Virus record (IMG/VR): IMGVR_UViG_3300020473_000011
Location: 62,001 to 126,000 of that record
DNA: 64,000 nucleotides
Strand: one strand, 5' to 3'
Source: a virus
The notes under the pieces are model-generated. The model saw only the letters and a list, made by a program, of their open reading frames with translations, did no database searches and was not told the origin of the DNA. Positions 20,001-53,124 of the stretch are shown one piece after another. The first letter of the stretch is position 1. Each line of letters opens with the position of its first letter. Position numbers and translations under genes: made by a program.

Positions 20001-20070
20001 CATTGTACAATGACCTAAATCAATAAATTAACTAAATCTCGTTGACAATTTAGTTAATTGCAATCAAAAT
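20001..20070 (+). promoter_or_regulatory. promoter with two different palindromic operators for the 20106 HTH gene
   Basis: A perfect operator CATTGTACAATG lies at 20001-20012. Further on, TTAACTAAAT (20028-20037) and ATTTAGTTAA (20048-20057) form a perfect 10-bp inverted repeat with a 10-bp gap. The -35 box TTGACA (20042-20047) lies in the gap; a plausible -10 (CAAAAT, 20065-20070) follows at 17 bp. The second palindrome occurs only here, so it is probably the gene's own operator. Confidence 0.7.
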
Positions 20071-20105
20071 ACACGCAATTGAAACAAAGATTACGAGTAG
20101 CCCCT

Positions 20106-21095
20106 ATGGCCGACAGTCGAGAATACATTGAACTGGCTTTAAAGCTTTTAAAATGTAACCAAAAAGAATTAGCAGCGAAGCTAGATGTCTCCCCTGCCCA
20201 AATCACAAAGTGGAAGCAAGGCGAGAAAATGTCCGACGAAATGCAGCGTCGCATCGTAGCACTTGTAGATCTCGACCCTAACGAGATAGACTCCACTGGC
20301 TTCCCTCACATAAAGCTCATGACAGGTAGCGAAGAGACTGCCACCTTGTGGTGCGCCGTGATTAATTACACAGCCACGCTCGTACATAATGAATCAAAGG
20401 ATTGGTATGTGTGCGATGATCTTATGAAGGATGGGTACACGCTGGCGCGTAAGGTGCTCGACGTCGTGTCATCAGTTGGCATAGACATCACGATAAAACC
20501 TGATGGCCATCTTTATCTTGCGGATGTTGAGCCAATAGAAGAAAACCTACCGCTCATCAACGAAAAATACCGCATGTTGATCGAGTTGGATTTCATCAGA
20601 CGACTGCTTAGGGCTTATGTTTGCGTGCATGCGTGGGTGAGTACATTTATAGAGCCGACACTAGACGAACTAGGTGACATCTACCCGCTTGGGAACAAAG
20701 TCATCACAGACGTTTATGAGAACCTAATGCGTGTCGCGCTATTGAAAATTGTCTATGATCCAAACGACGAGTATCGGCACATACTTGACATAGCAAAGGC
20801 GAGTGCGCAGAACCTTGTTGATTACGCCCATGTAATTAAGCGCTTCAAGAGACTGGTAGCAAGCACCTCGTTACCGTTTTTAGCTGAGTACGACGAACTG
20901 CTTGTAAGTTCATATCATACGCTACGGGAAGACCTGCTACACGTACGTGATTCACTCCCTGCTAGTGGCCACCCAGACATTTACCAAAATGAGCTGCTAC
21001 GAAAGACCCGCGAGAATAATGCCATGCTACGGCTCGTGTGCGAAAAGCTCGGGATCCGCGAGGGCGACGTCTATAACCAGCTTAATAGTTTATAG
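20106..21095 (+). CDS. XRE-type HTH regulator with large C-terminal domain, 329 aa
   Basis: Residues ~13-50 form a classic helix-turn-helix: NQKELAAKLDVSPAQITKWK, followed by GEKMSDEMQRRIVALVDLD. The remaining ~270 residues are helical with no recognised domain; the very end (LVCEKLGIREGDVYN) is again helical. ATG 20106 is preferred to the upstream TTG at 20058, which lies in the promoter. The flanking palindrome suggests autoregulation. It could be the repressor of the TTGTACAA operators or an unrelated regulator; sequence alone cannot tell. Confidence 0.75.
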   Translation: MADSREYIELALKLLKCNQKELAAKLDVSPAQITKWKQGEKMSDEMQRRIVALVDLDPNEIDSTGFPHIKLMTGSEETATLWCAVINYTATLVHNESKDWYVCDDLMKDGYTLARKVLDVVSSVGIDITIKPDGHLYLADVEPIEENLPLINEKYRMLIELDFIRRLLRAYVCVHAWVSTFIEPTLDELGDIYPLGNKVITDVYENLMRVALLKIVYDPNDEYRHILDIAKASAQNLVDYAHVIKRFKRLVASTSLPFLAEYDELLVSSYHTLREDLLHVRDSLPASGHPDIYQNELLRKTRENNAMLRLVCEKLGIREGDVYNQLNSL

Positions 21096-21098
21096 CGC

Positions 21099-21117
21099 CC
21101 CGCACAGGACAGTCGCA
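21099..21117. repeat. 19-bp direct repeat, copy 1 (copy 2 at 21381-21399)
   Basis: CCCGCACAGGACAGTCGCA occurs twice in the same orientation, 282 bp apart. It may mark a past duplication or insertion; no transposase or target duplication accompanies it. Confidence 0.8.
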
Positions 21118-21380
21118 CTGATAGCTTAGGTTATTGGTCTTCTGTCCTTTTTGCTTATTGGCCATGGGCGATTGGCCTCGCGCACGTGAGTGCTCCCTTA
21201 TGGTCATTACCCATCATCACTTCATCACTTCTTTGTATCTTACCCTCTTTGATGTACACCTACTTGCATGCTTATCTTCTTACATTATTAGCGAATGCAG
21301 CGCTTAATAATGCCGAAAAAATTTTTTTCGACCCTATTAAACAGAGTTTAACGGTTTGGCACCGCAGGTTTATTGGTGCG

Positions 21381-21399
21381 CCCGCACAGGACAGTCGCA
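21381..21399. repeat. 19-bp direct repeat, copy 2
   Basis: Exact copy of 21099-21117; see that entry. Confidence 0.8.
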
Positions 21400-21425
21400 A
21401 CCCCGCCTGTCGAAAACTCGCATAC

Positions 21426-21572: not shown

Positions 21573-22022
21573 TTACGGCATGACGGCATACCAGACACAG
21601 AACATCGCCCCTTCCCCTATCAGCATGAGGATGGCCATAGGGAGCACAATACCGATGAGTGCCCCTGCCTTCGGGTCGCGGCCTGTATACCATGGCGCTT
21701 CGATGAGTCTCCATATCGGATGATTCATGAGGTTACTGTATCGGTAGAGGATGGCGAGTATTAACCCTGTGACGATGAATGAGGCACCCTGCGTGAACGG
21801 GACGAGCTGCCATAGGAGCACATGCAGTACAGCCAGTATGATTATATAGCCACCGAGACAGCCGTACAGCTTTTTAATAAGCTTACCGAGGCGGGTTCTT
21901 GGCTCGGGCAATCCGATTGGCTTCTTCTGCCTAGGCTCAGTCTGTTGGAATAGGCGTATTGTGTCGATCAGCTCTTCATGGCTCATGGCAGACTTCTTGT
22001 TATTACCATAGGGGTTAGTCAT
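21573..22022 (-). CDS. multi-pass membrane protein, 149 aa
   Basis: Start ATG 22022 overlaps the XRE gene by 8 bp (ATGACTAA). The N-terminal ~60 residues are cytoplasmic and charged (RQKKPIGLPEPRTRLGK). Three or four hydrophobic segments follow (YIIILAVLHVLLWQLV, SFIVTGLILAILYRY, LIGIVLPMAILMLIGEG). No transporter signature. Pairing with an XRE regulator resembles two-gene regulated membrane-effector modules; a role in exclusion or host membrane change is speculation. Confidence 0.7.
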   Translation of the reverse strand: MTNPYGNNKKSAMSHEELIDTIRLFQQTEPRQKKPIGLPEPRTRLGKLIKKLYGCLGGYIIILAVLHVLLWQLVPFTQGASFIVTGLILAILYRYSNLMNHPIWRLIEAPWYTGRDPKAGALIGIVLPMAILMLIGEGAMFCVWYAVMP

Positions 22023-22347
22023 GGTCGGGTTCCTCGTTATTCTTAAAGAGCGCATCAATCTCTTCGTTCAGGGCTTTCATCTTATCTGACGTAAAGTACT
22101 GCGCTAGGTCGTCGGTCTCGTTTATGTTGTTAGTATGCGCTACATGTGGGTTTGTCGGTGCAAGGTCTATACGAAGGTTCAAAGTTCGCAGGTACTTCTC
22201 TAGGTACTTAATACCACCCTCAAAGGTACCGTTCTCCATCTGGGAAATCTGGCGTCTACCAATACCAAGTATCTCGGCTACCTGCTCTTGGGTAAGCGAC
22301 TTCTTTTTACGGGCGGCGGCAAGTACGCTCCCATCATATAAGGGCAT
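22015..22347 (-). CDS. XRE-family HTH transcriptional regulator, 110 aa
   Basis: ATG 22347 has GAGGATT 6 nt upstream, better than the upstream frame start at 22389. Residues ~12-45 form an HTH: SLTQEQVAEILGIGRRQISQ, MENGTFEGGIKYLEKYL. The C-terminal half (~60-110) is acidic and may mediate dimerisation or partner binding. Three TATATGGTAAC-type sites upstream are likely its operators. Confidence 0.78.
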   Translation of the reverse strand: MPLYDGSVLAAARKKKSLTQEQVAEILGIGRRQISQMENGTFEGGIKYLEKYLRTLNLRIDLAPTNPHVAHTNNINETDDLAQYFTSDKMKALNEEIDALFKNNEEPDHD

Positions 22348-22373
22348 GCTGAATCCTCGTCTATGCGCACTGT

Positions 22374-22448
22374 GCCTATATGGTAACAAACAGCTGTAAT
22401 GCGCCTATATAGTAAACTTTTAAGCGATTGTTACTATATGGTAGCAAT
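22374..22448. promoter_or_regulatory. three related operator sites upstream of the XRE gene
   Basis: Related sequences CTATATGGTAAC (~22376-22387), CTATATAGTAAAC (~22404-22416) and the near-palindrome TTGTTACTATATGGTAGCAA (22428-22447; 16 of 20 positions self-complementary). Their spacing next to the start of the XRE gene is typical of autoregulation. They differ from the TTGTACAA operators. Confidence 0.65.
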
Positions 22449-22533
22449 GCGCGTATCAAAGTGTCGGTGTACTGTCGTAGTATCAACGGGCGAAGAATAA
22501 CGGAAGGTGGGCAAGTTGTCTATGGGGGAAAAT

Positions 22534-22612
22534 AAAAACGACTGCAAGAAAACGACTGCACCCCTAGGATATTCGTAAATCTCAAAAAACGACTGCACAA
22601 AAGACGACTGCA
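22534..22612 (+). repeat. iteron cluster 1: four AAAACGACTGCA-type repeats
   Basis: Copies at 22534-22546, 22549-22560, 22584-22597 and 22599-22612, all in one orientation; core-to-core distances are 14, 37 and 15 bp. Same repeat as the larger cluster at 24545-24784. Confidence 0.85.
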
Positions 22613-22692
22613 TGTTCTATGTGGGCAGTGCGTTGTACAATGATTGCGATGTAATGTGCGATGCCGCAGGGGGTTAGCTGTCGAGTAGGTCA

Positions 22693-22721
22693 TTGACACG
22701 GCTATGGGTCGTTGCTAAAGT
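22693..22721 (+). promoter_or_regulatory. promoter for the 22826 operon
   Basis: TTGACA (22693-22698), 17 bp, TAAAGT (22716-22721). The same TTGACA-N17-TAAAGT form recurs at 33034-33062 (+) and 31352-31380 (-). Operator CGTTGTACAATG lies 50 bp upstream. Confidence 0.75.
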
Positions 22722-22825
22722 GCCCGCCTGACTAATGCGCTGTGTAATGTACTAGGTGCTGTGCGTTAGTTATACCGAGACATAGATAACGTCAAAACGA
22801 CAATGAATAACATATAGGTTATTGT

Positions 22826-23554
22826 ATGAAACTTACGATTGCTAATGAGCTGCCGCCACTCCCAAATAGCGATAGACTCGTTCCGATGAAGCAAGCGCCC
22901 TCACGTCTAGTAAGAAGTAATGGCACGCTGGCTATAGTGAAAGACCCGTATCAGGATGAACACGGCGAACTACGTATGGATGTCCTGTGCTTACTCGAAC
23001 ATAAAATCAGTAAGGTGAAACTCAAAGGGAATGGCTGTGGTATCTGCTTCCAAAAAGGACGACTGCACTATCTCAAAGAGTTCGACAGTGTTGTGGCCTA
23101 TACGGAACCTACGCACTCTAAAGTGATTAATCTGGCTGAGGTAGAAGACGATGTCATGACCCTCTTGTCGGAGTTCTACACGGTTGGCGATGGCTTCGAC
23201 ATTGCGGGCATCACGTTACCAATCAGTGCTGACGAATCTGCTGACGATGCTCAGGCACTACATGACCTATTCACAGCCCCTAAACAGCCCCTAACGCTCA
23301 TTTACCACATCACCCCTCTGAAACGTACCAATAAACACAATAGAACGCTTGAGGTGCGATACAGCGTGGCTACCCGTTGCTACTCACTACGCTATCTGGT
23401 CTCTATGCAGGCTCCGACGGTACTCAGCCTTAAACTCGATGCTGACACGGCACCGAACGTTGTACGCAACTTTCTTATGATGGCGCTGGCACACTTTGAT
23501 GATGCACTCGACCAAGACCACGCTAACCCTGCGGGTACTGGGGACGCAGCATGA
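22826..23554 (+). CDS. hypothetical protein, 242 aa, paralog of 23750-24514
   Basis: No known family. Distantly similar to the gene two downstream: SNGTLAIVKDPY versus SNGSFALITKPY near residue 32, a following VDVLCLLEHKISKVKL versus VDVLDHYTGNINSVKL, then RLHYLKEF versus GTHYLDDF. Contains one iteron inside the coding sequence (23052-23067). Ends with an ATGA overlap with the 58-aa gene. Lying within the iteron field, it might bind or act at these repeats; this is inference. Confidence 0.75.
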   Translation: MKLTIANELPPLPNSDRLVPMKQAPSRLVRSNGTLAIVKDPYQDEHGELRMDVLCLLEHKISKVKLKGNGCGICFQKGRLHYLKEFDSVVAYTEPTHSKVINLAEVEDDVMTLLSEFYTVGDGFDIAGITLPISADESADDAQALHDLFTAPKQPLTLIYHITPLKRTNKHNRTLEVRYSVATRCYSLRYLVSMQAPTVLSLKLDADTAPNVVRNFLMMALAHFDDALDQDHANPAGTGDAA

Positions 23555-23727
23555 AGACCTTGGAAAGCATGATTTACGATGCCGACGTAAAGCGTAGCCT
23601 GTGGGAAGACATCGCGAATGACCCACAAGCACTGGCAGATCGAGGCAAGACCCGTGAAGAAGCCCTGTACCAAATGAATTACTTTGAAGGTAGATTGGAC
23701 GCCCTGCGCGAGTTCCAGTCTCTTTAG
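23551..23727 (+). CDS. small hypothetical protein, 58 aa
   Basis: Starts at ATG 23551, overlapping the previous stop as ATGA, and ends at TAG 23725-23727. Sequence begins MKTLESMIYDADVKRSLWED and is helical and charged throughout. The overlap and codon use support a real, translationally coupled gene. Confidence 0.7.
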   Translation: MKTLESMIYDADVKRSLWEDIANDPQALADRGKTREEALYQMNYFEGRLDALREFQSL

Positions 23728-23739
23728 AAAACGACTGCA
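23728..23739 (+). repeat. single iteron between 23551-23727 and 23750
   Basis: AAAACGACTGCA starts one base after the TAG of the small gene and ends 10 bp before the next start codon. Confidence 0.8.
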
Positions 23740-23749
23740 TAACGAGACG

Positions 23750-24514
23750 ATGATAATGATGAATGCAATAACACAAAGCCACTATATCGGCGTGGATATG
23801 GCCAATGGGCAAGACCAATCGGTAATGACACGCTTCCAACGATGTAAGAGTAATGGCAGCTTTGCACTGATAACAAAGCCCTACGAGAAGAAGCAGCACC
23901 CGAACCAACAAGGCGGGCTTGACCTGTATGTGGATGTACTCGACCACTACACGGGCAATATCAATAGCGTGAAACTGTACGAGAATAAGCGCGGCTTACA
24001 CTTTAAGAAGAGCGGCACACACTACCTTGATGACTTCACTAAAGATGCGGTCTATGTCCCGTACCAAACGAAAATCCTGTACGACGTGCAAACAGCGGTG
24101 GGTCACATCAATAGCATTGCAGTGGCGCTTGACTGCATCGTTGATACGTCACGTGTCACCATATCTGAGGTACCCCATGCGGATGAACTGTCTGTTGATG
24201 AGAGTGCGATGACACGGTTGGCCTTCTCAGGGGGTATGCCCCTCATGGCGTATCTTAAAAACACCCTTGTCCAACGCTACACCTTCGCGCTGACAGGCAC
24301 CAACAAAGACATCCGAATCAATATCGAGCTTTCGACAGGTGCACTGACGGCATACTCTGTGTCGACGAACCGATGGTACCAACTCGATGTCCTTGCGAAT
24401 GCCCCTGACTCAGCCCTACTGCCTGCATTGGTTCGCACTATCAATGACATTGATGAAGAGGCTATCCGTGATGATGTATTTTCGGTACACGGAGACAAAG
24501 CCTACATCGAGTAA
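23750..24514 (+). CDS. hypothetical protein, 254 aa, paralog of 22826-23554
   Basis: Start chosen at ATG 23750 after ACGAGACG; ATGs at 23756 and 23759 are alternatives. The shared core with its paralog spans residues ~30-110 and again a C-terminal helical segment (LVRTINDIDEEAIRD versus LMMALAHFDDALDQD). No catalytic motif found. Immediately followed by the nine-copy iteron array, a placing typical of an initiator or DNA-binding protein next to its sites, though no replication-initiator family is recognised. Confidence 0.72.
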   Translation: MIMMNAITQSHYIGVDMANGQDQSVMTRFQRCKSNGSFALITKPYEKKQHPNQQGGLDLYVDVLDHYTGNINSVKLYENKRGLHFKKSGTHYLDDFTKDAVYVPYQTKILYDVQTAVGHINSIAVALDCIVDTSRVTISEVPHADELSVDESAMTRLAFSGGMPLMAYLKNTLVQRYTFALTGTNKDIRINIELSTGALTAYSVSTNRWYQLDVLANAPDSALLPALVRTINDIDEEAIRDDVFSVHGDKAYIE

Positions 24515-24544
24515 AAGCTAGCCCCTTATTTGGCAGGTGGTGTG

Positions 24545-24784
24545 AAAAAGACGACTGCACTCAAAAGACGACTGCACCCCATCTGCCCTGTACCCCGCTC
24601 AAAAGACGACTGCATAACACGCTTCAATAAAACGACTGCATTACTGACACCTGTAACCCTGAAATAAAACGACTGCAAAAAGACGACTGCACTCATATTC
24701 TATAGGGGGTGGTGAAAAAGACGACTGCACTCAAAAGACGACTGCACCTGTAGACTGACCCCACCCCTCGAAAAGACGACTGCA
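24545..24784 (+). repeat. iteron array 2: nine AAAAGACGACTGCA repeats
   Basis: All on one strand: 24545-24559, 24563-24576, 24601-24614, 24629-24640, 24666-24677, 24677-24691, 24715-24729, 24733-24746, 24771-24784. Core spacings are 17, 38, 26, 37, 14, 38, 17, 38 bp. The first three and last three copies belong to a duplicated unit of about 80 bp (from ~24537 and ~24707). The pattern fits plasmid or phage origin iterons or a partition site better than CRISPR. Confidence 0.88.
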
Positions 24785-24795
24785 TATCTGCTAAT

Positions 24796-24838
24796 CGTTG
24801 TACAAAGCTCTTGTGCCGCAGTGGTTTTCTGATACACT
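24796..24838 (+). promoter_or_regulatory. operator and promoter for the macro-domain gene
   Basis: Operator CGTTGTACAAAG (24796-24807), then TTGTGC (24811-24816), 16 bp, TACACT (24833-24838). The -35 box overlaps element 2 (GTGCCGCAG), as in the promoters at 37315, 38795 and 40206. Confidence 0.7.
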
Positions 24839-24886
24839 GGCGTCAACTAACCGACTAACACTAAACGATAATAGGAGCTGAGACCG

Positions 24887-25450
24887 ATGACAGCCATTAA
24901 CTATTCTGCGGGCTGCTTTGTTCGCGCCATCAAAAGCGGTGACCTCGATGCAGCCGCCCAGCAATCAAACGCTCAGTGCAGTATGACCAGTGGCCTTGCC
25001 CCAGTGCTTGCTGCTGAATACCCGCAAATCAAAGAGGCTGACGAAAAGTACAGTGCAGTCTTTAGCCCTGAGAAGAAAATGGGCACCTTCTCGCGCTGCC
25101 TGATGTGGGTCAACCAGAACCGCCCTGTCACCTTCTTTAACCTGTATGGCCAGCTAGACCGCAGCTCCAAACGAACGGCTGATGATGTTATCCGTGATTA
25201 TGCCTACCTTGAGCAGGCACTCGATACGATGGCAACTGACCTGCTTGATAACTTGAATGGGCGCTTGCACGTAGGCTTCCCGTTAATTGGCTGCGGCCGT
25301 GCTGGTGGTGATTGGGCTATCGTATCGCGTATGATTGAAACGGCCGTGTGTGCCAAAGGCATTAAGGTCACCGTGTTCGTGCCTGATGAAAAGTCCCAGC
25401 AAAAAGTGCGCGCTATCTATCCCTACGTCCACTTTGCTCAAGACGAATAG
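24887..25450 (+). CDS. macro-domain protein (ADP-ribose binding/hydrolase-like), 187 aa
   Basis: The C-terminal half has the macro-domain pattern: hydrophobic strand RLHVGFPLIGCGRAGGDWA (~126-144), the G-x-G-x-A/G-G phosphate-binding loop, then an amphipathic helix and VTVFVPDE. The N-terminal part (GCFVRAIKSGDLDAAAQQSN) fits the first strand and helix. Family members bind ADP-ribose or remove it from proteins or nucleic acids; phage versions include Appr-1''-p phosphatase-like proteins. In a phage it could repair tRNA-splicing by-products or reverse defensive ADP-ribosylation. Start follows AGGAGCTGAGACCG. Iterons lie on both sides. Confidence 0.75.
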   Translation: MTAINYSAGCFVRAIKSGDLDAAAQQSNAQCSMTSGLAPVLAAEYPQIKEADEKYSAVFSPEKKMGTFSRCLMWVNQNRPVTFFNLYGQLDRSSKRTADDVIRDYAYLEQALDTMATDLLDNLNGRLHVGFPLIGCGRAGGDWAIVSRMIETAVCAKGIKVTVFVPDEKSQQKVRAIYPYVHFAQDE

Positions 25451-25501
25451 ACAAACGAAAGGTAAAAAACAAAGCTAAGTAATAATGAGGGTACGGGGGT
25501 C

Positions 25502-25618
25502 AAAAAGACGACTGCATCCAAAAGACGACTGCATGTTTTGGTTTAATGGCCAAGACAAAAGACACACTAAAGGGAGTATAGGCTCCCTTTCACACCCTCA
25601 CCTAGAAAAACGACTGCA
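25502..25618 (+). repeat. iteron cluster 3: three repeats
   Basis: Copies at 25502-25516, 25520-25533 (core spacing 17 bp, as in array 2) and 25606-25618. A terminator (25569-25590) lies between the second and third. Confidence 0.85.
25569..25590 (+). terminator. terminator after the macro-domain gene
   Basis: AAAGGGAG, 6-nt loop, CTCCCTTT. The T-run is short, so termination may be partial. Confidence 0.6.
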
Positions 25619-25663: not shown

Positions 25664-26308
25664 ATGAGCAGAGCAACCCAAATCCTTGAGCGCGTATCTA
25701 TTATCTCTTACGACTTTGACATCAACAAAGTACTGGATGATGACGGCCGCCCACTTCCAAAAAAATTACTACGTGACATGGAGCGCGCTGATAAAGTTGA
25801 GCTTCGTAACCATGGCCAAGAGCTAACGGGTTACCGTGGCAACCGTATCGTATTTACGGCAGCGGGCTATGTTGAAGATGAAGGCTTAGACAAGGGTCAC
25901 TTCCTGATGGATAGCTACTTCTCAAAAGAGTTCGCGCTAAGCCAAACAATGACCGACGGCAAGCTTGTAGCAAACACCATCAATGGTGATAAGTTCAACG
26001 AAGCGTACGACGAAGAGCTTAAACACAAAGCGCTTAAATTTAAGCTGGTAACTGACACCGAAGCCAGTATCTCTGAGCTACTGACTAAGAAGCAGCTTGA
26101 CGCTGTCGTTACCGCGCATGACCTGTTCGATGGCAATAAGCGCGAAGTGTACGTGAATAGCTACGACAAGGAGACGCGTATTGGCTTCTCTGTGGCAATG
26201 AATGCGAGCTTACGTCTATCAGGTGATGACATCAAGAAACTTGATAAGTGTGGCTTTAAGTCAATCATCAAAGATAATGCAGGTGTGTCAGTTTACTTTG
26301 ACGCATAA
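25664..26308 (+). CDS. hypothetical protein, 214 aa
   Basis: Begins MSRATQILERVSIISYDFD. Mixed alpha/beta composition, two similar-looking segments, no membrane segment and no recognised motif. It is a single-gene transcript between the third iteron cluster and the terminator at 26329, preceded by its own operator. Confidence 0.72.
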   Translation: MSRATQILERVSIISYDFDINKVLDDDGRPLPKKLLRDMERADKVELRNHGQELTGYRGNRIVFTAAGYVEDEGLDKGHFLMDSYFSKEFALSQTMTDGKLVANTINGDKFNEAYDEELKHKALKFKLVTDTEASISELLTKKQLDAVVTAHDLFDGNKREVYVNSYDKETRIGFSVAMNASLRLSGDDIKKLDKCGFKSIIKDNAGVSVYFDA

Positions 26309-27790: not shown

Positions 27791-29359
27791 CTAATGGCAA
27801 ACTGGTGTTTTAGCAAGCTCAACGCCCTGTACCGCATGGGATGCCAGCGCAGCCCCCGCCTCAGAGAGCGTCAGGTATGTCTTATCGGCACCTGCGGCCT
27901 CGATACCTTCAACATAGTCACTGTGCATCGCGTTGGCAACAATAAGCCCATCATAGCCACCTTCACGCAGTTTACGTGCTGAGATCATACACGCTTCATG
28001 ACAATCCATGGCTAAGATACAGACATCAAGGTTTGACGTGTCGAGGTCTGCCCATACATTACCGTGCTCAGCATCCCCGTAAACAGCATTAAAGCCAAGG
28101 TTATCGACAAGCTCTTGGACTTTGTCAGGGTTCGAGTCGATACCGATAACAGCGACACCCGTTGCGGCAGTCGAACGGTAAGCAGCACGGCCAACTTTAC
28201 CCAGACCCATGACCAGCACTTTTGCATCACCCAGTGAGATTGGCTCTTCGTCAGGGTGACGGACATCGCGCTGGTACTTATTCAATCGGCGCTCGAATTT
28301 ATCGAACAGTGGGTGTGCGAAACGGTTAAGCGGCGCTGACACTAAGAATGATAAGGCCACGGCCAATGCCAGTGTTACGCTATAGTCAGGCATCACGGTT
28401 GCTGCTGCAATTAAGCCGAACTCAGAGTAGTTCGTCAAGGTTACCCCTGTTAAGAATGCAGTACGTGATGTCAGTTTAAAGGCCACCAGTAAGCCAAAGA
28501 ATAAGGCCGCCTTAATCGGCAGTAGTACCGCCATCGTTAACGCAAAGACCCAGTCATTCGCCGTCGGTAAGCCCTTCATGCCGATGGTTAGGAAGAAGGC
28601 AATCAGGAACATTTCTTTTAAGCCCCACATCTTACCGCCTAGCTCACCTGCCTTCGGGTGGGATGCTGCAAGGACACCCATAATAAGGGCACCCAGTTCA
28701 CCATGACCAATCCCCACCGAGTAGAAGCCGTAGCCACCTACCACAAGCGCAAGGAATAAGCCTGCCAGTAGTAACATTTCATCGTGACCACTGACGTCTA
28801 GGATCTTATTAACCACAGGACGGGCAAAGAATAGCAGTAGTAGCGCAGCTGACCACACCGACGGGATTTCACCACCAGCGACCAACATGAACGTAATAGC
28901 AATCAGGTCTTGTACAATAAGTATGCCGATGGCGAGCTGACCATGAATAGCCTTTAACTCTGACTTACTGCCGAGCACCTGTGCTGCCAGTACGGTTGAC
29001 GAGAAGGTCAGCGCTATCGACAACATAAAGGCAGTATGCCACGCAATGTCGAACCCAAAGTGGATGACAGGGGCTGCCACCAGCGCAGAGATACCAAAGT
29101 GTAAAATACTGGTACCCGCCACATCGGCCTTTAAAACTTTCTTAGGCTTGAGCTTTAGACCCACCGTAAAAAGCAAAAGAAGTACCCCGACGTGGGCAAG
29201 TTGGTCAAGGGTTTCCTTGCCGTTATCTTTAAGCCCAAGGTGGTCAGTCAGAATGAAGACCGCAAAGCCTGCGGCAAGATAACCAATCAGGCTGGGTAAG
29301 CCGACACGTGTAGCCAGTAGACCCAGTACAAAGGCCATACTGATCCAGATAAGTTCCAT
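27791..29359 (-). CDS. KefB/KefC-type cation:proton antiporter with TrkA-N domain, 522 aa
   Basis: Residues ~1-370 contain about 12 hydrophobic segments of the Na+/H+ exchanger (CPA2) family, with HVGVLLLLFTVGLKLKPKKV and IALTFSSTVLAAQVLGSKSE characteristic of the Kef/YbaL branch. After a charged linker (~370-390) comes a Rossmann-type TrkA-N domain: VLVMGLGKVGRAAYRS, then VIGIDSNPDKVQELVDN. Such proteins exchange K+ or Na+ for H+ across the inner membrane and are gated by nucleotides. ATG 29359 has GGAGG 8 nt upstream. Full length and apparently intact. Unusual among phage-like genes; may have been taken from a host. Confidence 0.88.
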   Translation of the reverse strand: MELIWISMAFVLGLLATRVGLPSLIGYLAAGFAVFILTDHLGLKDNGKETLDQLAHVGVLLLLFTVGLKLKPKKVLKADVAGTSILHFGISALVAAPVIHFGFDIAWHTAFMLSIALTFSSTVLAAQVLGSKSELKAIHGQLAIGILIVQDLIAITFMLVAGGEIPSVWSAALLLLFFARPVVNKILDVSGHDEMLLLAGLFLALVVGGYGFYSVGIGHGELGALIMGVLAASHPKAGELGGKMWGLKEMFLIAFFLTIGMKGLPTANDWVFALTMAVLLPIKAALFFGLLVAFKLTSRTAFLTGVTLTNYSEFGLIAAATVMPDYSVTLALAVALSFLVSAPLNRFAHPLFDKFERRLNKYQRDVRHPDEEPISLGDAKVLVMGLGKVGRAAYRSTAATGVAVIGIDSNPDKVQELVDNLGFNAVYGDAEHGNVWADLDTSNLDVCILAMDCHEACMISARKLREGGYDGLIVANAMHSDYVEGIEAAGADKTYLTLSEAGAALASHAVQGVELAKTPVCH

Positions 29360-29399
29360 AAAGGGCACCTCCAATAATCAATAGTCTGTGGGAAGCGCC

Positions 29400-52893: not shown

Positions 52894-53124
52894 TGGGTTG
52901 CGTTGAAAAAGTGAGCGATAATCGACTGCGGTGCAGTCTATCTGACAGAAAGCGTGTCTGGTATAAAGCGGGTCTGATAGAAAGAGAGTGCCTAGCCCGC
53001 AGTTAGGAGCAACGGGAAGGCACTCGTAAGTTAGAAGGAAGACGCCGCAGCCCGTGGATTTTTGCGTATGATGTGGTTGGGCTGCGACGTGTTTTTTCGG
53101 TTTAGTTAATACTTAGCCACGCTA
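52894..53124. other. non-coding region with nested inverted repeats, possible structured RNA
   Basis: Contains element 2, an 8-bp inverted repeat GAGTGCCT/AGGCACTC (about 52988-53027), and CGCAGCCC/GGGCTGCG (about 53046-53091) followed by TTTTTT on the plus strand. No coding frame is convincing. Could be the terminator of 53125-53772 or a small RNA; no promoter is clear. Confidence 0.45.

Follow-up and report, generated by a model that had tools for sequence, protein, structure and literature searches.

A field of same-strand repeats in the accessory region of a large virus record as putative sites for a transcription regulator

We suggest that a field of short same-strand repeats at 22.5-25.6 kb of the window, i.e. 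the 64,000-nt stretch of viral DNA analysed here, on balance represents an array of sites at which a phage-specific transcription regulator binds to control, and probably to silence, a block of accessory genes. In this model, each repeat would be an asymmetric DNA site for a sequence-specific, probably phage-encoded transcription regulator. A single site upstream of a leftward promoter would act as a helically phased promoter element, while at 22.5-25.6 kb and at 128.3-128.9 kb of the surrounding virus record the core would have been amplified to same-strand doublets and arrays that lie before, between and after the genes of the accessory block. Several regulator molecules could bind an array as independent units, and the bound regulator would silence or tune the block by blocking initiation and intergenic read-through in an operator/stoperator manner. 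From the sequence patterns described here, we infer that a protein binds the repeats, that binding affects transcription and that the net effect of the arrays is repression. If correct, the model would point to a possible coordinated control of accessory genes in a 280-kb phage and to a compact regulatory code (TTGTACAA, CTGY-N3-RCAG and CGACTGC) for the little-studied large Pseudoalteromonas phage-plasmids.

The window is part of a 281,557-bp virus record in which tail-sheath genes are present. Its kin comprise a contig of Pseudoalteromonas and a circular Pseudoalteromonas plasmid of 128 kb, so that the record is probably a giant (jumbo) Pseudoalteromonas phage-plasmid. Its phage nature is based on the tail sheath and a weak baseplate match; one Pfam model for Terminase_6N found no match in the record, and no DNA similarity to phages or plasmids was found. 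The genome also encodes a ProQ-like protein.

The core CGACTGCA is present 24 times in the window versus 2.57 +/- 1.78 times in dinucleotide shuffles (largest count 8; 2.6 expected). Eighteen of these cores lie at 22,539-25,618, all on the + strand; ten of the 18 copies are perfect matches to the 14-base AAAAGACGACTGCA, and the remaining copies have one or two changes in the A-rich 5' part. A second field of five copies is found at 128,275-128,903 of the record, 2.3-2.9 kb beyond the window. The two fields are 42 kb apart and confined to the accessory region; the rest of the 281-kb record has nothing comparable. Over the 23 copies of both fields the consensus is AAAARACGACTGCAY, and the 9-bp core ACGACTGCA is unchanged in 23 of 23 while the adjoining context beyond the motif is not conserved. 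An invariant core with free flanks supports the regulator model. The cores are spaced by 14, 37 and 15 bp in cluster 1, by 17, 38, 26, 37, 14, 38, 17 and 38 bp in the main array, and by 17 and 85 bp in the doublet and single copy behind it; a 31-bp doublet reads AAAAGACGACTGCACTCAAAAGACGACTGCA. Moreover, a 70-bp sub-array at 24,545-24,614 is duplicated at 24,715-24,784. Between these two stretches the three repeats are identical (42/42), while only 12 of the 34 other aligned bases agree (Fisher p = 8e-11). Thus, the repeats were kept while the other bases drifted, which argues for selection on individual sites. The earlier note had described 18 same-strand repeats, two preferred spacings (14-17 and 37-38 bp) and a duplicated sub-array of about 80 bp; all three descriptions hold, with one spacing of 26 bp and a duplication of 70 bp.

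The field and its surroundings are arranged as follows (window coordinates).
20058..21095, + strand: gene for a 345-aa protein with an N-terminal HTH_3 domain
22015..22389, - strand: HTH_3 (XRE-type) repressor-like gene, divergent from cluster 1, with its own upstream palindromes
22533..22612, + strand: repeat cluster 1, four copies in two doublets (cores 22539, 22553, 22590, 22605)
22633..22640, no strand: TTGTACAA palindrome (element A), 20 bp past the end of cluster 1
22693..22721, + strand: sigma-70-like promoter TTGACA-17-TAAAGT of gene 22826, the region's best, a consensus match only
22826..23554, + strand: orphan gene, 242 aa, paralogue of 23756-24514, no Pfam or PHROG match
23054..23067, + strand: single deviant copy AAAGGACGACTGCA within gene 22826
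23726..23739, + strand: single copy between a 58-aa ORF (23551-23727) and gene 23756
23756..24514, + strand: orphan gene, 252 aa, paralogue of 22826-23554
24546..24784, + strand: main array, nine copies (cores 24552, 24569, 24607, 24633, 24670, 24684, 24722, 24739, 24777)
24798..24805, no strand: TTGTACAA palindrome, 13 bp past the main array, followed by the promoter-like TTGTGCCGCAG and TACACT
24887..25450, + strand: macro-domain-like phosphatase gene, 187 aa (phrog_335, E 2e-31)
25503..25533, + strand: repeat doublet downstream of gene 24887
25605..25618, + strand: single copy directly followed by a TTGTACAA palindrome (25623), ahead of gene 25664
25664..26308, + strand: orphan gene, 214 aa, the last gene of the repeat-associated block

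The repeat clusters are intergenic in an accessory region with an intergenic share of 19%, and 16 of the 18 copies are plainly so. One exception is the copy at 23,054, which may be a coding coincidence; the other, at 23,726, lies in the 28-bp gap before the 23,756 gene and becomes genic if translation starts at a TTG further upstream. Hence, of the earlier description of repeats both inside and between genes, the second part stands, while the first comes down to the deviant copy at 23,054 with or without that at 23,726. The proteins encoded by 22826 and 23756 are 31% identical (phmmer E about 1e-6). Neither these two proteins nor that of 25664 have relatives in IMG/VR, and those of 23756 and 25664 have none among phages; the predicted structures of the 22826 and 25664 proteins are of low confidence (pLDDT 35 and 37). 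The divergent HTH_3 gene is a candidate for a local regulator and the 345-aa protein is another, the latter having no relative in the PDB. A further candidate is an HTH protein encoded at 126.5 kb of the record. For the neighbouring proteins, which are named by neither Pfam nor PDB, the PDB sequence search gave nothing usable.

That copies flank each of the genes in 22826-25450, and that near-identical 29-bp doublets bracket the gene at 128,538-128,809 of the record, could also be read as repeats marking the boundaries of exchangeable cassettes, with recombination duplicating, losing or swapping accessory genes. Other same-strand repeat families (CCTCGGGTCAGA and CTGTCCTGTGCGGG) in intergenic space of the same accessory region fit this idea. 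We give it a slim chance, because the repeat flanks have no further homology, 14-31 bp is short for recombination, and the invariance of single copies together with the phased placement at promoters requires another function.

All copies in the window share the sense of the neighbouring rightward genes, as would be expected if they acted in the transcript as a protein- or sponge-RNA motif, AAAAGACGACUGCA, a reading that the ProQ-like protein would also favor. However, the main array read in the sense direction is no more stably folded than shuffles (z -0.78), nor are the separate pieces, and the core lies outside the transcript at leftward promoters. Also, cluster 1 and the doublet at 128.4 kb are located in intergenic regions between divergent genes, ahead of the first, and nearest, rightward promoter (for cluster 1, between the leftward HTH_3 gene and TTGACA-N17-TAAAGT) and, therefore, need not be transcribed, which favors a role at the DNA level and leaves an RNA-level element with a very slim chance. 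The - strand of the main array, antisense to the genes, has a folding z of -2.48. Apparent stems enclosing repeat doublets (GGCAGGTGG/CCATCTGCC and GGGGTGG/CCACCCC) had no support from folding energies and were discarded. As no gene next to the array would be a matching partner, we set aside type III toxin-antitoxin repeats, integrase arm sites and packaging sites.

The DNA-level model connects the repeats to a palindrome that marks promoters throughout the record: TTGTACAA is found in 149 copies versus 7.7 expected, and it is also enriched in both relatives (98 versus 5.8 and 62 versus 4.3 expected). Four repeat clusters end 4-43 bp upstream of this palindrome. At many rightward promoters a related element, CTGY-N3-RCAG, lies about 20-24 bp upstream of the -35/TTGTACAA, i.e. 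at a class I activator position. The promoter calls themselves are consensus matches, and their number is not above that in shuffles. With repeat arrays upstream of TTGTACAA promoters, a phage activator binding the repeats to turn rightward promoters on would be an unlikely alternative; the distance from the last repeat to the -35, however, varies (about 80, 26, 4 and 43 bp), and some repeats, within the operon or past its last gene, have no promoter after them. These varying distances, together with the copies behind genes or inside the operon (23,726; 25,503; 128,875 of the record), fit silencing better than class I activation.

The core is also found at leftward promoters. At seven of these, CGACTGC is found upstream of TTGTACAA at a distance of 17, 27 (five times) or 38 bp, a turn-stepped placement, and the sequence between the two is mostly different. 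The proposal that the array core equals the left part of element 2, linking the array to the promoter network, is thereby confirmed and sharpened to these fixed distances. Some of these promoters may be duplicates of one another and, therefore, amount to fewer independent observations. The sites listed at leftward promoters are the following.
52923..52929, + strand: CGACTGC core, 38 bp from TTGTACAA
53881..53887, + strand: CGACTGC core, 27 bp from TTGTACAA
55918..55931, + strand: CGACTGCACCGCAG (element 2), 27 bp from TTGTACAA
58337..58343, + strand: CGACTGC core, 17 bp from TTGTACAA
60835..60841, + strand: CGACTGC core, 27 bp from TTGTACAA
61773..61786, + strand: CGACTGCACCGCAG (element 2), 27 bp from TTGTACAA

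The array copies face rightward promoters in the opposite orientation to that in which single copies face leftward promoters, which counts against the regulator model. It is conceivable, if rather unlikely, that one asymmetric site has two uses, with the single phased element driving leftward accessory promoters and the large reverse-sense arrays silencing, or titrating, the same regulator at a block of rightward accessory genes. Such an arrangement would provide the accessory genes with a built-in feedback switch of the sponge/silencer type.

The same-strand repeats, their arrays and the duplicated sub-array had suggested origin iterons or a partition site in the earlier note, and a kin that is a circular plasmid implies that there must be an origin and a centromere of plasmid type somewhere. 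In this respect the repeats resemble the iterons of RK2, F, P1 and R6K, which are short same-strand direct repeats in arrays. However, plasmid iterons are typically 17-22 bp long and phased by whole turns (about 19-22 bp), and their cooperativity is reported to be lost on half-turn separation (PMC4980987), while the motif here is 14-15 bp and the spacings of 14, 15, 17, 26, 37 and 38 bp correspond to a phase of 0.33-0.62 of a helical turn, i.e. near n+0.5 turns and out of phase. The GC skew, which the earlier note had proposed as a check, does not turn at 84-88 kb of the record, where the array lies. There are no DnaA boxes and no AT-rich element at the array; the only two strict TTATCCACA DnaA boxes of the record, at 129,734 and 129,856, lie alongside a GTGAATA cluster (129.66-129.90 kb) 42 kb away. 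Also, the copies occur at two places separated by 42 kb, scattered between genes and within an operon. Pfam scans recognised neither a Rep nor a ParB family among 113 accessory proteins, no Rep family was among the families listed (25 of 28) for the proteins of 2-62 kb and 266-281 kb, and no Rep gene, ParA/ParM/TubZ-type NTPase family or centromere-binding protein family is found near the array. An unknown Rep could be hidden among the orphan proteins; a PDB sequence search with a protein of the kin plasmid suspected to be a Rep yielded no usable match. The ParA and ParB of the kin have no homologue in the record, and their operon maps just beyond its two ends, which are missing. We, therefore, consider replication-origin iterons, an iteron-like copy-control (inc) site or a partition site of a phage-plasmid quite improbable here. 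An origin assignment that was tempting but lacks support is thereby removed; better candidates are the origin-like stretch at 129.66-129.90 kb and, for the partition locus, the unassembled gap at the contig ends.

The repeats are absent from both kin and from 109 Pseudoalteromonas genomes, so that none of the relatives searched carry arrays whose spacing might be conserved. A search of IMG/VR with the repeat-array pattern gave chance matches only, and a promoter-pattern search for relatives found none. Among known systems, the operators/stoperators of Cluster A mycobacteriophages, which bind the L5-type immunity repressor, are asymmetric sites of ~13 bp in more than 20 copies, found in promoter regions and short intergenic spaces with an orientation tied to transcription (PMC9283540). 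Similarly, there are 23 copies of an asymmetric 14-15 bp motif here, in clusters that are intergenic bar one in-gene copy. Unlike the genome-wide stoperators, however, these sites are confined to two accessory loci and form doublets and arrays; their orientation follows the rightward genes in 18 of 18 copies, while at the seven leftward promoters the core is opposite to transcription. Also, the protein that binds stoperators is a monomeric immunity repressor with two domains, and the analysis revealed no repressor carrying a stoperator domain.

The start-associated sequences (SAS) of Cluster K mycobacteriophages are 13-bp asymmetric repeats in 11-19 copies per genome and, like the repeats described here, have one orientation and lie among non-structural genes (PMC3203893). 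However, SAS are located 3-7 bp ahead of start codons and include a Shine-Dalgarno core (AGGAG), whereas here AGGAG is in none of the copies, the copies nearest to start codons lie 16-213 bp before them, and the repeats form arrays. Finally, clustered operator or enhancer sites upstream of bacterial promoters comprise several copies of one binding site. The field described here differs from such clusters in the unusual number of copies (nine in 239 bp), in the strictly single orientation and in the re-use of the same core elsewhere as a single phased element.

All 18 repeats that the earlier note had claimed are real and lie on a single strand, and a second field beyond the window brings the total to 23 copies. 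The groups discussed here are:

22533-22612, cluster 1, four repeats
24546-24784, main array, nine repeats
24545-24614 and 24715-24784, duplicated sub-array
record 128,275-128,903, second field, including the 128.4-kb doublet

The consensus over the 23 copies is AAAARACGACTGCAY, in which nine bases are invariant, and the flanking context beyond the motif is not conserved. Doublets of 14-mers separated by 0-3 bp are the commonest arrangement; gaps between groups are mostly 23-24 bp, with a single gap of 12 bp. Within the duplicated sub-array, the repeat bases are identical (42/42), while the remaining bases have drifted (12/34). Full conservation of the repeats amid drifted bases means that individual sites are under selection and not just recently copied.

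The record is 281,557 bp long (the window covers bases 62,001-126,000) and encodes a tail sheath (phrog_23, E 4e-73) together with a weak baseplate-wedge match. Its sheath has 86% identity with that of Pseudoalteromonas sp. B95 (202-kb contig) and 69% with that of Pseudoalteromonas sp. SCSIO 43201 (circular 128-kb plasmid). Because this plasmid encodes ParA, the group most likely represents a jumbo phage-plasmid. Gene by gene, a virion backbone is common to all three (about 1-80 kb and 165-281 kb of the record), whereas neither relative has a counterpart of record 81-165 kb. This accessory region also carries a sodium/hydrogen exchanger with a TrkA_N domain (27791-29374, minus strand). In IMG/VR no other record has the array (three chance-like matches), the doublet is present in 0/109 Pseudoalteromonas genomes, and single matches in B95 are no more numerous than with a control pattern, although the tools used in these searches may hide records very close to the phage record.

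The record contains 149 copies of the palindrome TTGTACAA, where 7.7 would be expected, and both relatives show a similar enrichment; for the wider form of this palindrome, AATCRTTGTACAAYGATT, the enrichment is about 15-20 fold in all three. Many copies overlap the -35 (TTGTAC-N17-TATAGT) or sit in the -35/-10 spacer. Examples of AATCRTTGTACAAYGATT are at window positions:

468
542
2006
49853
61738

AATCRTTGTACAAYGATT looks like a lineage-wide operator, perhaps that of the master repressor. A second element (CTGY-N3-RCAG) is placed some 20-24 bp upstream at rightward promoters. Seven leftward promoters (record 114.9-128.3 kb) have the repeat core, as GCAGTCG, upstream of the palindrome at 27 bp in five cases, 17 bp in one and 38 bp in one, i.e. 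at 27 bp or one helical turn less or more, and the intervening sequence mostly differs. This confirms that the element 2 named in the earlier note includes the array core and supports the proposed link to the regulatory network. The best evidence for the core being a promoter element that acts at the DNA level comes from this phased placement.

For four clusters, a TTGTACAA lies 4-43 bp downstream of the cluster end, and other copies lie within an operon or behind genes (23,726; 25,503; record 128,875). Because cluster 1 and the 128.4-kb doublet both precede the first rightward promoter of the locus they belong to, they need not be in RNA; folding of the sense strand of the arrays is not unusual. 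Neither a classical activator nor a rigid iteron complex fits all repeat positions. By contrast, all of them fit a regulator that binds asymmetric sites as independent units, both upstream of genes and between them. We give about an even chance to such a regulator array, which would probably act by silencing. The stoperators of L5-like mycobacteriophages (PMC9283540) are the nearest working parallel. Membership is not claimed because the sites here are local, the orientation rule is broken at the leftward promoters and this phage has no known repressor of that kind.

Three HTH proteins are candidate regulators:

22015-22389
20058-21095
record 126.5 kb

None is assigned because the first and last have their own palindromes upstream. 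Near each repeat field is an XRE-type HTH gene, and their upstream palindromes differ (22383-22450, TTACTATATGGTAGCAA; L004:330-500, TATCATATATGATA), which suggests separate local repressors.

The alternative reading of the array as an origin or partition site is unsupported. Cumulative GC skew shows no turning point close to the array; its turns lie near 165 kb and towards the end of the contig, mostly tracking gene direction. Pfam scans of 113 accessory proteins found no Rep or ParB family. The spacings (14, 15, 17, 26, 37, 38 bp) are each near half-integral helical turns, whereas half-turn separation abolishes cooperativity in iteron plasmids (PMC4980987). Homologues of the ParA, ParB-like and third gene of the par operon lie together in both relatives and are missing from this record, and both record ends (L038 start; L015 end) map beside that operon; the partition locus is thus probably in the unassembled gap. 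A better origin candidate is record 129.64-129.93 kb (L004:3640-3930), between divergent genes outside the window. It holds the only two strict TTATCCACA DnaA boxes in the record (129,734 and 129,856), facing each other and surrounded by six GTGAATA copies, though it is not AT-rich.

In the relatives, clustered repeats of other sequences lie just beyond the virion gene block (NZ_CP072685.1 118.0-119.4 kb and 122.9-123.0 kb; B95 contig 197.9-199.1 kb, L036). The 118-kb cluster of the plasmid contains DnaA boxes, and the 370-aa gene that comes after it may be its Rep. The record itself has another same-strand intergenic family, CCTCGGGTCAGA, with about 10 copies between leftward genes (L005:2800-6400, record 148.8-152.4 kb). 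A long repeat, GCGCCCCGCACAGGACAGTCGC, is present at 21096-21118 and 21382-21400 and as its reverse complement at L005:4490-7370 (150.5-153.4 kb), with the same orientation relative to adjacent genes at both locations.
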